Positions 1,256-7,689 of a stretch of DNA of 64,000 bases are shown one piece after another; the stretch's first letter is position 1, and every line of letters starts with the position of its first letter. Source of the DNA: Kosakonia sacchari. Lineage in GTDB: Bacteria > Pseudomonadota > Gammaproteobacteria > Enterobacterales > Enterobacteriaceae. Below the pieces are notes generated by a model. The model did no database searches, was not told the DNA's origin, and was given only the letters and a program-made list of their open reading frames with translations. The stretch spans positions 492,269 to 556,268 of the forward strand of contig FOAY01000001.1 of assembly GCA_900109485.1 (NCBI GenBank), given 5' to 3'. Both the position numbers and the translations under genes were made by a program.

Positions 1256-1335
1256 TTGGACTGAGTGAGTGACCTTTAATCGTCAACCATTACAATTATG
1301 CTTAATAAAATGATTATTACAGGCGGGAGGTCAAC

Positions 1336-2880
1336 TTGATCCCGGACGTATCACAGGCGTTGTCCTGGCTGGAAAAACATCCTCAGGCAGTAAAGGGGAT
1401 CCAACGCGGTCTTGAACGTGAGACGCTGCGCGTAAACGCAGATGGCTCGCTGGCGACCACCGGTCATGCGGCGACGCTCGGCTCTGCCTTAACTCATCAG
1501 TGGATCACTACTGATTTTGCGGAAGCGCTTCTGGAGTTTATTACGCCGGTCGATGGCGATATCGACCATATGTTGACGATCATGCGCGATATTCATCGCT
1601 ACACCGCGCGCCAGATTGGCGACGAGCGGATGTGGCCGCTGAGTATGCCGTGCTATATCAAAGACGGCCAGCAGATTGAGCTGGCGCAGTACGGCACCTC
1701 CAACATTGGTCGCCTGAAAACGCTCTATCGCGAAGGGTTGAAAAACCGCTATGGCGCGCTGATGCAAACCATTTCCGGCGTGCATTACAACTTCTCGTTG
1801 CCGATGGCATTCTGGGAAGCGAAAAGCGGCGGTACCGATAAAGAAACGGTATCCGACGGCTATTTCCGCCTGATCCGTAACTATTACCGTTTTGGCTGGG
1901 TGATCCCGTATCTGTTTGGTGCGTCTCCGGCGATCTGCCCGTCGTTCCTGCAAGGGAAACCGACCACGCTGCCGTTTGAGAAAACGCCGAACGGTATGTA
2001 TTACCTGCCGTATGCCACATCGCTGCGCTTAAGCGATCTGGGCTATACCAATAAATCGCAGAACAACCTGGGCATCACCTTTAATAATCTGCACGATTAT
2101 GTGGTGGCGCTGAAGCGGGCGATAAAAACGCCTTCGGAAGAGTACGCTAAAATTGGTCTGAAGAAAGACGATAAGTATCTGCAAATCAATACCAATATTT
2201 TGCAGATCGAGAATGAGCTGTATGCGCCGATTCGCCCGAAACGCGTGACCCGCAGAGGTGAAACGCCGTCGGATGCGCTGCTGCGCGGCGGCATTGAATA
2301 TATTGAAGTGCGCTCGCTGGACATCAACCCCTTCACGGCGATTGGCGTTGACGAGCAGCAGATTCGCTTCCTCGATCTGTTTATGGTCTGGTGCGTGCTG
2401 GCCGATGCGCCGGAGATGAGCAGCGACGAACTGCTGTGTACGCGTACAAACTGGAATCGCGTGATTCTGGAAGGGCGTAAACCGGGCCTGACGCTGGGCA
2501 TTGGCTGTGAAACCGCGCAATTCCCGCTGGCGAAGGTCGGCAAAGATCTGTTCCGGGATTTGAAACGAGTGGCGCAGACGCTCGATGGCGTGTACGGTGG
2601 CAACGAATACGAGCAGGTGTGTGAACAACTGGTCGCCAGCTTCGACGATCCGGATCTCACTTTCTCGGCGCGCATCCTGCGTTCGATGATCGATAACGGC
2701 ATTGGCGGCACCGGCAAAGCGCTGGGCGATCAGTATCGTTCACAGCTTCGCGAAGAGCCGCTGGAAATCCTGCATGAGGAAGATTTTATCGCCGAGTGCA
2801 AAGCATCGCTGGCGCGTCAGGCAGAGATTGAAGCCGGGGATACCGAGTCATTTGAAGCGTTGCTCGCGCGTCACGCCTGA
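1336..2880 (+). CDS. gshA: Glutamate-cysteine ligase GshA
   Basis: A 514-residue enzyme (E. coli 518) that joins glutamate and cysteine with ATP, the first and feedback-regulated step of glutathione synthesis in the cytoplasm. It follows E. coli GshA from end to end, including [12 protein letters not shown] near residue 20, the HYNFSLP region near 150 and [14 protein letters not shown] near 323. The start is a rare TTG after a good GGGAGG Shine-Dalgarno, as in E. coli, where the TTG keeps expression low. The stop lies 9 bases from the MicA terminator on the opposite strand, so the two transcripts converge. Confidence 0.97.
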
Positions 2881-2888
2881 CAGAAAAG

Positions 2889-2962
2889 AAAAAGGCCACA
2901 TTGCTGTGGCCAAAATTTCATCTCTGAAAGTCAGGGATGATGATAACAAATGCGCGTCTTTC
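2889..2962 (-). ncRNA. micA: MicA small RNA
   Basis: The minus strand between gshA and luxS reproduces E. coli MicA. The 5' end GAAAGACGCGCATTTG is the seed that pairs with ompA and phoP mRNAs. An internal hairpin around CATCCCTGA/TCAGAGATG follows, then a GGCCAC...GTGGCC terminator stem with a T-run at 2889-2893. MicA is a sigma-E-driven, Hfq-dependent repressor of outer-membrane protein synthesis. Its 5' region faces the divergent luxS leader, as in E. coli. The loop of the terminator and one internal loop differ from E. coli, but both stems are preserved. Confidence 0.93.
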
Positions 2963-3033
2963 ATATACTCAGACTCGCATGAAAAAGAAGAGTTCATTTT
3001 TATTTAAAAAAAATCACTGTCGGAGGTGACTAA

Positions 3034-3549
3034 ATGCCATTGTTGGATAGCTTCACTGTCGATCATACCCGTATGGAAGCCCCTGCTGTCCGTGTAGCCA
3101 AGACCATGGACACGCCGCATGGCGATACCATCACCGTATTCGACCTGCGTTTCTGCGTGCCTAACAAAGAAGTCATGCCGGAAAAAGGGATCCACACGCT
3201 TGAGCATCTGTTTGCGGGTTTCATGCGTAACCACCTCAACGGCAACGGCGTTGAGATCATCGATATTTCGCCGATGGGTTGTCGCACGGGCTTCTACATG
3301 AGCCTGATTGGTACGCCGGATGAGCAGCGTGTTGCGGATGCGTGGAAAGCGGCGATGGCCGATGTGCTGAAGGTGAAAGAACAGAGCCAGATCCCGGAAC
3401 TGAACGTCTACCAGTGCGGCACCTATACCATGCACTCGCTGGAAGAAGCGCAGGAAATCGCCCGTCACATTCTCGACCGCGATGTCCGCGTTAACAGCAA
3501 CGAAGAGCTGGCCCTGCCGAAAGAAAAATTGCAGGAACTGCACATCTAG
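3034..3549 (+). CDS. luxS: S-ribosylhomocysteine lyase LuxS
   Basis: A 171-residue metalloenzyme that splits S-ribosylhomocysteine into homocysteine and DPD, the AI-2 precursor. It serves the activated methyl cycle and quorum signalling. The metal-binding HTLEHLFAG motif (HxxEH, near residue 54) and the C-terminal zinc-cysteine segment [10 protein letters not shown] (near 126) are both present, and the length equals that of E. coli LuxS. A strong GGAGGTG ribosome site sits 5 bases before the ATG. A hairpin terminator follows directly. Confidence 0.98.
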
Positions 3550-3564
3550 TGCTGTCATTGTAGC

Positions 3565-3595
3565 GCCCGGTAGCTCGCTTACCGGGCCTGCTTTC
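3565..3595 (+). terminator. luxS Rho-independent terminator
   Basis: A perfect 8-bp stem GCCCGGTA/TACCGGGC (3565-3572 with 3580-3587) with a 7-base loop lies 15 bases after the luxS stop and is followed by a short T/C-rich tail. It separates luxS from the AraC-type gene downstream. Confidence 0.75.
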
Positions 3596-3616
3596 TCGCC
3601 ACCCAGCGGCAACCCG

Positions 3617-4387
3617 ATGACCACCACCTTAACCTTCTCCTTTACGCACCGTCCTCTGCATCCCTTCGCCCATGATTATCAGCACGGCGACAGCGAACCG
3701 TGGCATCAGCACGATTGCGCGCAGCTATTGCATAGCCTGAGCGGCGTGGTGCGCGTGGATACCGCTGCCGGGTGCTGGGTGGTTCCGCCGGGTCGCGGCG
3801 TGTGGTTACCCGCCGGAACAGAGCATGCTATCCGCATTACCGGCAGCGTTGCAGCCCGCACGCTGTTTATCGATCCGCTGGCCCGCGCCGATCTGCCTGC
3901 GTCCTGCCAAATCGTGCAGATCACGCCGCTGCTGCGTGAACTCATCGTCGCTGCGTTCGATCTGGCCCCGGAGTATGCGCCCGGCAGCCGTGATGAACGC
4001 ATCTATGAACTGATTCTGGATGAAATCCGCGCCATGCCGGTGCTGCCGTTTCACCTGCCGGAGCCGCAAAGCGCAGCGTTGCGCCAGCTATGCGAACAGA
4101 TCCGCGCCGAACCGGGAGTAAGCTGGAGCAGCGCGCAGTCCGCCAGCCTGACGAACATGAGCGAGCGCACGCTGAACCGGCATTTTCAGCAGCAAACAGG
4201 GCTAAGTTATGGCGAATGGGTGCGACGCGCCCGTTTATTGGCGGCGCTGCTGCGTCTGGCGCAAGGGCAATCGGTACTGCGTGTGGCGCTGGATCTGGGA
4301 TACGGCAGCCACAGCGCCTTTACGGCGATGTTTCGCCGGGTGATGGGCGTCTCACCCAGCGACTACTTCCGCGAACCTTCCCTTTAG
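3617..4387 (+). CDS. AraC-family regulator with cupin N-terminus
   Basis: A 256-residue protein with an N-terminal cupin-like sensor: WHQHDCAQLLHSLSGV near residue 33 and a VPPGRGVWLPAGTEH fold signature near 58. The C-terminal AraC helix-turn-helix pair spans about residues 160-255 (MSERTLNRHFQQQTG...YGEWVRRARLLAALLRL...DLGYGSHSAFTAMFRRVMGVSP). The start at 3617 drops non-homologous upstream residues. The ribosome site is weak. It converges with the isopropylmalate-synthase-like gene and overlaps its end by 4 bp. The ligand is unknown. It may act on that neighbour or on EmrRAB, but only position supports this. Confidence 0.85.
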   Translation: MTTTLTFSFTHRPLHPFAHDYQHGDSEPWHQHDCAQLLHSLSGVVRVDTAAGCWVVPPGRGVWLPAGTEHAIRITGSVAARTLFIDPLARADLPASCQIVQITPLLRELIVAAFDLAPEYAPGSRDERIYELILDEIRAMPVLPFHLPEPQSAALRQLCEQIRAEPGVSWSSAQSASLTNMSERTLNRHFQQQTGLSYGEWVRRARLLAALLRLAQGQSVLRVALDLGYGSHSAFTAMFRRVMGVSPSDYFREPSL

Positions 4388-6033
4388 CCCACCGCGTTCA
4401 GCAACGCCTGTAATGAGGCGCGTGCGACATCATTATCAATCCCCACGCCCCAGCGGCTGCTGCCATCCTGGTACAGGCAGCGAATATACGCCACCGAGCG
4501 GCTGTCGCTGCGCGCGCCAAGCGTATGCTCGTGGTAATCCTTGATGACAAACGGTGTGCCCAGCCACGGAGTGATGGCATTGGCCGCCGCCGAAAGCAGG
4601 CCATTGCCGCTGCCGGTCAGCTCGCGCGTTTTACCTTCCCGCATGACCGTCGCCGTCAGGCGTAACTGACCATCCTGCTGGCTGTCGCTGCGATAGCGTT
4701 GCAGCGACAGCGGCGGCGAAGGTATAAGACCGTAGCGGTTGCGGAACAGTTGCCACAGCGCATTTTGCGTCATCTCTTTGCCGTGTTTATCCGTCTCCTG
4801 CTGCACATGCTGGCTAAAATCCTGTTGCAGGGCGCGTGGTAGTTTCAGGCCATGGTTTTGTTCAATTAGCCAGGCGCTACCGCTTTTCCCGGACTGGCTG
4901 TTTACACGGATCACCGCTTCATAACTACAGCCAATATCCTGCGGATCGACCGGCAGGTAGGGCATCTCCCAGCGGCTACCGGCTTTACGGGCATCGAACC
5001 CTTTTTTGATCGCATCCTGGTGCGAGCCGGAAAACGCGGTATAGGCCAGGCTGCCAGCCCACGGATGACGCGGGTGTACCGGCAGTTGGTTACAGCTTTC
5101 CACCACTTCCACTACGCGCTGCATATCGCTGAAATCGAGCTGCGGGCTGATCCCCAGGCTGTAGAGATTCATCGCCAGCGTTACCAGGCAGACATTACCG
5201 GTGCGCTCACCGTTACCAAACAGGCAGCCTTCAACGCGATCGGCTCCGGCCATCACCGCCAGCTCTGCGCAGGCAACGCCGGTGCCGCGATCGTTATGCG
5301 GATGCACGCTGATGCACACGTCGCTACGGCGGCTGAAGTGGCGGCAGAAATATTCAATCTGATCGGCATAAACATTCGGCGTACTGACTTCAACGGTCGC
5401 CGGCAGGTTAATGATCATCGGGCGTTCGGCGCACGGTTGCCAGACATCGGCCACCGCTTCGCAAATCTCCAGCGCGAAGTCGGCTTCGGTAAAGCAAAAC
5501 GTCTCCGGCGAATACTCATACTGCCAGCGCGTTTGCGGATTCTCTTCGCACAGCTGGCGAATCAGTTGCGTGGAGCGCGTCGCCAGCTCAACAATCTGCG
5601 CTTTCTCCATGCCAAATACCAGGCGGCGAAACAGCGGCGCCGTGGCGTTGTACAAATGAATTGTCGCCTGTCTGGCGCCGTGCAGCGAAGCAAAGGTGCG
5701 GTGAATTAAATCTTCCCGCGCCTGGGTTAACACCTGAATCGTCACATCGTCGGGAATGCGCTGCTCTTCAATCAACTGGCGAACAAAGTTGAAATCCGTT
5801 TGCGAGGCCGAAGGGAAAGCCACCTCAATCTCTTTAAAGCCGCACGCCAGCAGCAGGTCCCAGAATTGCAGTTTGCGTGCGCTGTCCATCGGTTCTGCCA
5901 GCGCCTGGTTGCCGTCGCGCAGGTCGGTCGAAAGCCAGCGCGGCGCATGGCTAATGCGCTGTTCCGGCCAGCGGCGATCGGGCAGGGCGAAAGGGATGAA
6001 CGGGGAATATTTTTCTGCGGGATTTTTAAGCAT
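4384..6033 (-). CDS. 2-isopropylmalate synthase, type-2 LeuA paralogue
   Basis: A 549-residue member of the DRE-TIM metallolyase family. The TIM barrel carries the catalytic LRDGNQAL near residue 40, metal ligands HPHNDRGTG near residue 245 and GNGERTGN near 275. The C-terminal 150 residues form a LeuA allosteric domain, including HTLGARSDSRSVAY. Architecture and length fit the actinobacterial/yeast-type enzyme, not the 523-residue LeuA of the enterobacterial leuABCD operon, so this is probably an additional alpha-isopropylmalate (or related 2-alkylmalate) synthase. An AGGAG site 8 bases before the ATG at 6033 sets the start. It lies 105 bp downstream of emrB on the same strand. Substrate range is not readable. 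Confidence 0.82.
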   Translation of the reverse strand: MLKNPAEKYSPFIPFALPDRRWPEQRISHAPRWLSTDLRDGNQALAEPMDSARKLQFWDLLLACGFKEIEVAFPSASQTDFNFVRQLIEEQRIPDDVTIQVLTQAREDLIHRTFASLHGARQATIHLYNATAPLFRRLVFGMEKAQIVELATRSTQLIRQLCEENPQTRWQYEYSPETFCFTEADFALEICEAVADVWQPCAERPMIINLPATVEVSTPNVYADQIEYFCRHFSRRSDVCISVHPHNDRGTGVACAELAVMAGADRVEGCLFGNGERTGNVCLVTLAMNLYSLGISPQLDFSDMQRVVEVVESCNQLPVHPRHPWAGSLAYTAFSGSHQDAIKKGFDARKAGSRWEMPYLPVDPQDIGCSYEAVIRVNSQSGKSGSAWLIEQNHGLKLPRALQQDFSQHVQQETDKHGKEMTQNALWQLFRNRYGLIPSPPLSLQRYRSDSQQDGQLRLTATVMREGKTRELTGSGNGLLSAAANAITPWLGTPFVIKDYHEHTLGARSDSRSVAYIRCLYQDGSSRWGVGIDNDVARASLQALLNAVG

Positions 6034-6138
6034 GTGATGCGCTCCTGTTGTCTTTTCACCATCGTGAAGCGATTTCAGGAGCGCTGCTTTATCGGAACTG
6101 ACAACCACTGTCGCGTTCTGGACAAGGCGCGGCAAAAA

Positions 6139-7674
6139 TCAGTGCGCGCCGCCTCCGCCGCCACCGGCGCCGAAAGGGGGTTTGGCAAACCACACCAGAC
6201 TGAGCAGGATCAGGAATATGCCCGCCGAGAACCAGAAAATCTCATTGGCGGAAATGATCAGCCCCTGATTAGTGATCTCCTGCGCTATCCAGCCGGACGC
6301 CTGCTGTTGCGACATCCCCATGCCTTGCAGTTGGTTATACATCTCCTGCGCGTTGGGGTTGTACGGATTGACCGACTCGGTAAGCTGAGCGTGGTGCAGC
6401 GATTCCCGGTTAGTCCACAGCGTGGTGGTGATCGATGTCCCAATCGAACCGGCCAGCGTACGAGTAAAGTTCGACAGGCTGGATGCCGCCGCCAGTCGCT
6501 CAGGCGACAGCCCGGAAAGCGTAATGGTGGTGAGTGGCATAAAGAAACAGGCCACGGCAAAACCCTGAATAAACTGCGGCCACGCGGAAGCGCCAAAGTC
6601 CATTCCCGGTTCGAAGGTATACGCACGCCAGTAGAAGCAAACCGCATACATAATAAAGCTGAAGGTCACCAGACGGCGCATATCCAGCTTATGGGCGAAG
6701 CGGCCAATAATCGGCGACAGCAGTACCGGGATCACCCCGACAGGCGCGGAGGCCAGGCCCGCCCACGTTGCCGTATAGCCATAGACTTCCTGCAATAGCT
6801 GCGGCAGCAAAACAATCGCGCCGAAATAGAGCATATAGGCGAGGCTGATGCAGAGGCAGCCGATGGTAAAGTTGCGCGACTTAAACAGCGACAGATCGAC
6901 TATCGGATTTTCATCGGTCAACTCCCAGACCACCAGGAAGCTGATCGACACCACGGCGACAATCGTCAGCACGATGATCTCCGTCGAGTTAAACCAATCC
7001 AGCTCTTTGCCCTGGTCGAGCATCACCTGCAAACTGCCGATACCGATAATCAGCAGCGCCAGACCAATACCGTCAATGCGTCGCTGTTCGGTTCGCGTCT
7101 CGCGGCCGCGCAGGCTTTGCAGCGTCAGCACCACCACCAGCGCGCCGATCGGCACGTTGATAAAGAAGATCCAGCCCCAGTGGTAGTTATCGCTGATATA
7201 ACCGCCGAGGATCGGCCCGCAAATCGGCGCGACGATCACCGTCATTGACCACAGCGCCAGCGCGATGGAGCGTTTGGCGGGCGGGTAGTTGCTCAGCAAC
7301 AAACTCTGGGAGAGCGGGATCAACGGCCCGGCGACAATCCCCTGGATCACGCGAAAGAAGATCAGCATCGTCAGGCTGCTGGAGACGCCGCACGCCCATG
7401 AGGCGATAGCGAAGGCCACCGTTGACCAGAGGAACAGCTTTACTTCCCCGACGCGCTTTGCCAGCCAGCCGGTGATCGGAATCGAGATGGCATTCGCTAC
7501 CCCAAAAGAGGTGATCACCCATGTCCCCTGGCTCAGCGACGAGCCAAGGTTGCCAGCGATCGTGGGAATCGCCACGTTAGCGATGGTGGAGTCCAGCACC
7601 TGCATGAAGGTCGCAAGCGACAGCGCAATGGTCATAATGACCAGCTGCGCGCCTTCCAGCGGTTTCTGTTGCAT
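6139..7674 (-). CDS. emrB: EmrB, DHA2-family multidrug proton antiporter
   Basis: A 511-residue, 14-helix major-facilitator protein, almost identical to E. coli EmrB. Diagnostic stretches are MQVLDSTIANVAIPT in helix 1 and the motif C-type GPILGGYISDNYHW near residue 160. The C-terminus is the odd glycine-rich GAGGGGGGAH tail that E. coli also has. It forms a tripartite pump with EmrA and TolC for hydrophobic uncouplers. The ATG at 7674 follows GAGGTG at a proper distance; a GTG nine bases upstream lies inside that ribosome site and is less likely. It starts 15 bp after emrA. Confidence 0.96.
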   Translation of the reverse strand: MQQKPLEGAQLVIMTIALSLATFMQVLDSTIANVAIPTIAGNLGSSLSQGTWVITSFGVANAISIPITGWLAKRVGEVKLFLWSTVAFAIASWACGVSSSLTMLIFFRVIQGIVAGPLIPLSQSLLLSNYPPAKRSIALALWSMTVIVAPICGPILGGYISDNYHWGWIFFINVPIGALVVVLTLQSLRGRETRTEQRRIDGIGLALLIIGIGSLQVMLDQGKELDWFNSTEIIVLTIVAVVSISFLVVWELTDENPIVDLSLFKSRNFTIGCLCISLAYMLYFGAIVLLPQLLQEVYGYTATWAGLASAPVGVIPVLLSPIIGRFAHKLDMRRLVTFSFIMYAVCFYWRAYTFEPGMDFGASAWPQFIQGFAVACFFMPLTTITLSGLSPERLAAASSLSNFTRTLAGSIGTSITTTLWTNRESLHHAQLTESVNPYNPNAQEMYNQLQGMGMSQQQASGWIAQEITNQGLIISANEIFWFSAGIFLILLSLVWFAKPPFGAGGGGGGAH

Positions 7675-7689
7675 TGCACTCACCTCAGA

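Follow-up and report, generated by a model that had tools for sequence, protein, structure and literature searches.

Enterobacterial leucine synthesis is usually described with one feedback-inhibited 2-isopropylmalate synthase (IPMS) encoded in an attenuated operon, and the type-2 IPMS of Mycobacterium tuberculosis is a housekeeping enzyme. Several systems described in the literature, for which we draw on the accessible sections of the papers cited, resemble parts of the locus analyzed here. Leptospira interrogans has a second IPMS, LeuA2, which is devoid of the leucine domain and is encoded by the gene most induced by superoxide (PMC12345160). NimR (YeaM) of Escherichia coli is an AraC-type, single-target regulator of nimR/nimT (PMC8249747). 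Leucine-insensitive IPMS variants include A555V of Mycobacterium abscessus, where mutants with lost feedback resist norvaline (PMC11057210), and R529H and G532D of Corynebacterium glutamicum (PMC12907686). In the leucine engineering of Klebsiella oxytoca, a foreign insensitive type-2 leuA was brought in, and the accessible part of that report mentions the native leuA only in connection with the leuABCD operon (PMC12907686).

The locus compared here with these systems is a pair of genes, araC and leuA2, located between luxS and emrB in a 64,000-nucleotide stretch of the genome of the plant-associated bacterium Kosakonia sacchari (hereafter, the window). The LeuA2 protein is similar to M. tuberculosis LeuA (1sr9/3fig) and to the yeast-type family TIGR00970 in its three-domain architecture and catalytic residues; unlike the M. 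tuberculosis enzyme, it is a second copy beside a type-1 LeuA, has three leucine-pocket alanines changed and has an AraC partner. As in Leptospira, a feedback-controlled IPMS would be accompanied by a second enzyme under separate regulation, but the Leptospira LeuA2 is without the regulatory domain, whereas the Kosakonia enzyme keeps this domain with changed pocket residues. The AraC protein of the module resembles NimR in family, in its similar size and in its apparent dedication to an adjacent gene; its target, however, would be a biosynthetic enzyme rather than an exporter, and the two genes are convergent. The changes in the M. abscessus variant and, judging by position, those in the C. 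glutamicum variants map in or near the leucine regulatory site, as in LeuA2, but those variants were obtained by selection or engineering and their effect is known, whereas the LeuA2 substitutions are natural and may affect the response to leucine. We saw no description of the araC-leuA2 pair in listings of the open-access literature. The features of the locus, in window coordinates, are the following.

3034-3549, forward strand: luxS, the left flank of the module, from the ORF list; this flank is conserved in luxS-emrB loci
3617 (ATG) to 4387 (stop), forward strand: AraC-family regulator, 256 aa, an ORF with a cupin-type N-terminal domain and a C-terminal AraC helix-turn-helix
6033 (ATG) to 4384 (stop), reverse strand: leuA2, type-2 IPMS, 549 aa, with catalytic, linker and LeuA_dimer domains
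6042-6046, reverse strand: leuA2 ribosome-binding site AGGAG, read from the sequence, inside the hairpin
6039-6084, reverse strand: inverted repeat GCGCTCCTG...CAGGAGCGC, predicted to pair across the leuA2 ribosome-binding site in read-through RNA
6061-6066, reverse strand: -10-like CACGAT, putative promoter element, aligned with CAGGAT/CAGACT of other module loci
6093-6125, reverse strand: direct repeat TTGTC-N16-TTGTC with a 21-bp period, candidate AraC operator, from upstream alignments and spacing counts
6139-7683, reverse strand: emrB, the right flank, in the same orientation as leuA2

The ORFs, the sequence and the family models bear out the first-pass annotation of this region, namely, an AraC gene and a 549-residue type-2 LeuA gene with overlapping 3' ends between luxS and emrB: the two genes are convergent, and their stop codons overlap by 4 bases (4384-4387). 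In E. coli, luxS adjoins emrB, and a distant blastn search with window positions 3550-6140 against an E. coli collection produced no match. The GC content is 62.5% in araC, 58.6% in leuA2, 58.4% in emrB and 55.5% in the window; we considered a recent foreign origin of the pair, for which the contrast between the two genes and the window is not decisive.

LeuA2 scores above the NCBIfam cut-offs of PRK03739 (839.8 vs 455 bits) and leuA_yeast TIGR00970 (776.5 vs 697.4 bits), and below those of the listed type-1 IPMS, homocitrate synthase and citramalate synthase models (87.3 vs 462.9 bits for nifV_homocitr and 64.5 vs 450 bits for citramal_synth). Its Pfam domains are HMGL-like, IPMS_D2 and LeuA_dimer, and the presence of the last one (residues 420-548, E 3.5e-20) sets it apart from the Leptospira type of enzyme that is missing the regulatory domain. 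Among solved structures, M. tuberculosis LeuA is the closest relative, and the nearest named locus, with 97% identity, comes from Kosakonia arachidis. The residues R80, D81, H167, S216, E218, T254, H285, H287 and N321 (M. tuberculosis numbers) are all present in the window LeuA2 and in the aligned module sequences. For most of these, we take the roles in metal and 2-oxoacid binding to be those usual for the family. The roles of the others follow the accessible sections of PMC10464499 and PMC2704214. The checked 2-oxoacid and metal residues are invariant among the module sequences and the same as in type-2 enzymes that are not linked to araC. The genome encodes, elsewhere, a separate type-1 leuA of 523 aa, with leuB and leuC directly beside it, so that the absence of a separate leuA, which the first-pass annotation named as a refutation of its reading, does not apply; by our naming of the ORFs, the genome also encodes a NifV-like enzyme and an HMG-CoA-lyase-like enzyme. 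In genome G789 (rated 100% complete, 20 contigs), the gene of the LeuA2 clade (L130) is the only HMGL-family match, and leuB and leuC score above the cut-off, suggesting that this clade member serves as the IPMS. Together with the invariant residues, this counts against the idea, put forward in the earlier annotation, that the enzyme makes a different 2-alkylmalate; the product of LeuA2 would be 2-isopropylmalate, made from acetyl-CoA and 2-ketoisovalerate.

Type-2 LeuA was detected in 82 of the 392 genomes of the same family (hand count), at 65% identity or more in 75 of these and at 48-58% in 7, one of which has its match in fragments in a genome that is 49% complete. In 74 of the 75 genomes (the exception is G377), the same search yielded at least one further match, counted irrespective of its type. 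In the loci fetched for part of these 75 genomes, some of which, coming from two collections, may represent the same organism, the AraC gene is the convergent neighbour in 69 of the 69 cases with LeuA2 of at least 65% identity (locus L002, the same place as L005, was removed beforehand), and the AraC protein is 62-100% identical to that of the window. The same AraC gene was found beside LeuA2 of at most 61% identity in none of 41 loci (E 1e-5; some are on short contigs). Further loci that fit the pairing are L129, L159-L162 and the own-genus copies L198 and L199. Among the six own-genus genomes in the sample, LeuA2 is present in G000, G334 and G390 and absent from G072, G193 and G268. In the phylum sample, 106 of the 299 genomes gave a type-2 LeuA match with E of at most 1e-100, which we take to be mostly the housekeeping enzyme of its hosts.

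The module occupies the luxS-emrB site in many loci and other places elsewhere. Seven loci (six titled Pantoea and one Enterobacter cancerogenus) share a pqqB-like gene in the flanks, and six of these also have pqqC- or pqqE-like genes (ORFs named by us); two copies reside on plasmids, in Chimaeribacter and in Pantoea piersonii. Among the listed clusters of flanking ORFs (at least 110 aa, 49 loci), there was no third gene that accompanies the pair from one context to the next. The pairwise protein distances of AraC and LeuA2 are correlated with r = 0.94 over 61 loci, as would be the case under co-inheritance, but shared species history would also give such a correlation. Damaged copies of the module exist as well: L022 contains one internal stop, the G096 copy is split, and the L075 match extends only to residue 458. 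Across these contexts, araC-leuA2 holds as a two-gene module.

In a tree of 56 LeuA proteins, the 26 module proteins, L158 and L130 lie on one side of a branch with 100/100 support, apart from the 28 others. L158 is encoded on a plasmid of Moraxella osloensis and is convergent with an AraC gene, whereas in G789, the source of L130, the AraC gene is divergent. Both are long branches in the LeuA tree, L130 was flagged in the first AraC tree too, and their exact places are unsure. The AraC tree of 35 rows yields the same grouping (100/100), with L130 and L158 probably misplaced inside; the earlier tree of 43 rows, spoiled by the long outlier L115, did not resolve it. On plasmids of Rhizobium and Shinella (L156, L157) and in genomes G014, G016 and G162 (L200, L201, L205), more distant type-2 leuA genes are preceded by an AraC-family gene in divergent orientation. 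These divergent pairs were considered as members and rejected: the AraC tree places them apart from the module clade, and they do not have the full pocket signature. Such a pairing of regulator and enzyme seems to have had more than one origin.

The first-pass view of the pair as inserted between luxS and emrB stands in so far as several genomic places contain the pair as a module; at this very site, however, a relative without the pair bears a deletion scar. In that own-genus genome (G072), the 206 bases between the luxS and emrB matches retain sequence that matches window 3547-3683, with the 5' end of araC, and window 5943-5996, an early segment of leuA2, ahead of emrB (6128 on), which implies that part of the patchiness of the module reflects loss. 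The luxS-emrB interval in G193 is a clean 53 bases. Two loci from Kosakonia sp. S29 and Phytobacter (L046, positions 1274-5595, and L047) contain about 5 kb of extra cargo between emrB and leuA2: an RNA-ligase-domain gene (PF09414), then a gene with HD and AAA_33 domains, one for a 701-aa protein with FKBP-type domains and a small lipoprotein-like gene. At three own-genus sites without the module (L207, L208 and L210, in G268, G334 and G390), luxS is followed by a lipoprotein-like gene and a second exported-protein-like gene, which by eye resemble the L046 cargo. The luxS-emrB interval looks like a variable-cargo site.

The reading that we favour, with only slightly more confidence than doubt, is that araC-leuA2 is a self-contained, dispensable two-gene regulon in which an AraC-induced second IPMS feeds leucine synthesis outside leuABCD control. 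Under this scheme, the AraC protein would bind two half-sites with 21-bp spacing just upstream of a leuA2 promoter that has no good -35 box, and would turn on this promoter when its ligand is present. LeuA2 would then condense acetyl-CoA with 2-ketoisovalerate, and the housekeeping LeuCD and LeuB would carry the resulting 2-isopropylmalate on to leucine. Because leuA2 is located outside the leuABCD operon and has a remodelled leucine pocket, it could support flux through the leucine pathway in situations where the normal LeuA is switched off or inactivated.

The control region of leuA2 contributes to this reading. TG(T/G)C half-sites exactly 21 bp apart precede leuA2 in 62 of the 66 distinct module upstream regions (the other 4 are without such a pair by the pattern used), compared to at most 5 regions for any other spacing tried, from 6 to 60, and to a mean of 0.4 and a maximum of 3 in shuffles. 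The aligned half-site is approximately TTGTC(C/A)-N-TTTTGCG, and the half-sites are followed, at a nearly constant distance, by a -10-like CAGGAT/CAGACT, probably the leuA2 promoter, with no evident -35 box. The 21-bp repeat has the anatomy of an AraC-type operator, with two direct half-sites about two helical turns apart, and is a good candidate for one; it marks where something may bind rather than that the effect is activation. In the window's genome, the strict operator pattern occurs 4 times versus once for the reversed control. Apart from the leuA2 site, one adjoins a NimR-like AraC gene, one lies between the genes of an FtrA-like regulator and a hydrolase, and one precedes tgt (all by our ORF naming); none of the four adjoins the leuABC genes. 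Most simply, AraC would be a dedicated regulator with a single target. Autoregulation of araC through the same site is not supported, as none of the listed regions upstream of araC contains two TGTC words. The 21-bp TGTC pair was not found in the Moraxella locus (L158). An AraC paralogue in the same genome (L117, contig C20, about 174865-175666; 34% identity), which we take to be NimR from the nimR-nimT arrangement, has an upstream region with the same 21-bp-period TGTC repeat, so that the DNA recognised by the two regulators may be similar.

Around the leuA2 start, a stretch of 121 nt folds with -43.1 kcal/mol (z -4.04; 0 of 200 shuffles as stable), and the hairpin arms, GCGCTCCTG and CAGGAGCGC, cover the ribosome-binding site. 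Among the 42 loci with an adjacent emrB, an emrB terminator was found in 0 of the 19 with a strong hairpin, that is, a paired ribosome-binding site and a 70-nt fold of -22 kcal/mol or lower, and in 19 of the 23 others (Fisher p 2e-8; this is no true probability, since the threshold was set with the data in view, and the loci are relatives and may in some cases come from one genome present in both collections). Under the labels assigned by the script, 22 loci are paired without a terminator, 11 paired with one, 8 open with one and 1 open without. Inspection of the hairpin by eye reveals one compensatory change, C-G to T-A (in L009, L012 and L015), and broken pairs in L018, L039, L040 and L043, so the covariation appears weak. 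A riboswitch was rejected as the first choice for this hairpin, which is confined to one group of related loci and stands where the emrB terminator is missing. Because RNA from the putative promoter would start downstream of the 5' arm, we read the hairpin as a probable guard against emrAB read-through and not as a sensor.

The leucine-site residues of M. tuberculosis LeuA listed in the accessible sections of PMC2704214 include A558, A565 and A567, in place of which the window LeuA2 has T504, S511 and S513. Removal of identical proteins and of those shorter than 500 aa reduced 144 rows to 131 (62 module, 4 other AraC-linked and 65 unlinked). The positions of A565 and A567 (511 and 513) are S/S in 62 of the 62 module rows, which, these rows being relatives, one ancestral change could explain, and A in 60 and 65, respectively, of the 65 unlinked rows. 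At the A558 position, module rows have T (56), S (5) or A (1), and unlinked rows have A (57) or S (8). In an enlarged set, S occupies 511 and 513 in 64 of 64 module rows, and the 68 unlinked rows have A in 61 and S in 3 at position 511, and A in 67 at position 513. The A536 position is uninformative: S, as in S481 of the window LeuA2, is found in the module but also in 47 of the 65 unlinked rows. The residues corresponding to A558/A565/A567 are T/S/S in L130, S/S/A in L158, A/S/A in L157 and A/A/A in L156. By our cut-offs, 10 positions separate module from unlinked enzymes, and 5 of these fall in the regulatory domain, a weak excess (about p 0.06, hand binomial). The changed pocket alanines, along with the position of leuA2 away from the leuABC cluster and with an operator-like repeat of its own, make the suggestion in the first-pass annotation that the enzyme may bypass leucine feedback a plausible one; perhaps, feedback by leucine is altered in module LeuA2 enzymes.

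Leucine sensitivity might also survive, given that LeuA2 keeps the regulatory domain and most of the leucine-site residues (G531, G533, L535, Y554 and also Y410). We therefore weigh as a possible, if rather improbable, alternative that LeuA2 is an ordinary, still leucine-inhibited IPMS, with AraC sensing leucine shortage or a pathway intermediate, so that the pair is a redundant, spare leuA regulon. This alternative gains from G789, whose apparently sole IPMS has the T/S/S pocket: such a pocket can belong to a housekeeping enzyme and need not mean lost regulation. The G789 enzyme further differs in having S for T254. It gains, too, from the own-genus relative that deleted the pair and from the others that are without it. 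The fixation of S at positions 511 and 513 in all 62 module rows argues in the opposite direction, and the invariant catalytic residues and the conserved operator-like repeat speak for a use of its own.

The AraC protein scores above the Pfam cut-offs of PF12833, PF00165, PF02311 and PF07883, that is, a helix-turn-helix and a cupin-type N-terminal domain. In 65 of the 65 module rows, it keeps H30, H32, C34, Q36, H70, C97 and C159 (HxHxCxQ plus three more residues), and C34 occurs in 0 of the 11 compared AraC rows without LeuA2 beside them. This conservation makes metal or thiol sensing by the regulator possible. From here, one could propose that AraC senses oxidative or metal stress and that LeuA2 takes over from a damaged or demetallated LeuA1, or serves to release CoA. 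We consider this unlikely: HxH is common in AraC-type cupin domains, the kept residues other than C34 also occur in many of the compared rows, and no stress gene was seen travelling with the pair. There is a precedent, however, in the Leptospira LeuA2, for which a role of this kind has been proposed (accessible sections of PMC12345160).

A further reading, which we find distinctly doubtful, is an inducible target-bypass module, whereby the regulator would recognise a leucine antimetabolite or an inhibitor of leucine synthesis from plants or soil and induce a feedback-escaped second IPMS, the leucine output of which would out-compete the poison; this would be the natural counterpart of the norvaline-resistant IPMS mutants of M. 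abscessus. Finally, production by LeuA2 of another 2-alkylmalate, or of 2-isopropylmalate that is exported as such, is very unlikely: group-specific changes at residue 72 and at residue 180 (which is only three positions away from E177 and presumably close to the active site), emrAB upstream at the luxS-emrB site and a LysE-type exporter gene beside the module on the Chimaeribacter plasmid would be compatible with it, but the checked 2-oxoacid and metal residues are those of unlinked type-2 IPMS, the scores against the citramalate and homocitrate synthase models are below the cut-offs, and emrAB is not kept beside the module elsewhere.

Under the favoured reading as a two-gene regulon, araC-leuA2 resembles a switch by which the cell could circumvent normal leucine control. 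Feedback escape can be tested directly through the fixed pocket changes, and a closely related second IPMS, of type 2, in 75 of 392 genomes of the family would change the reading of leucine mutants of Klebsiella, Enterobacter, Kosakonia and Pantoea.
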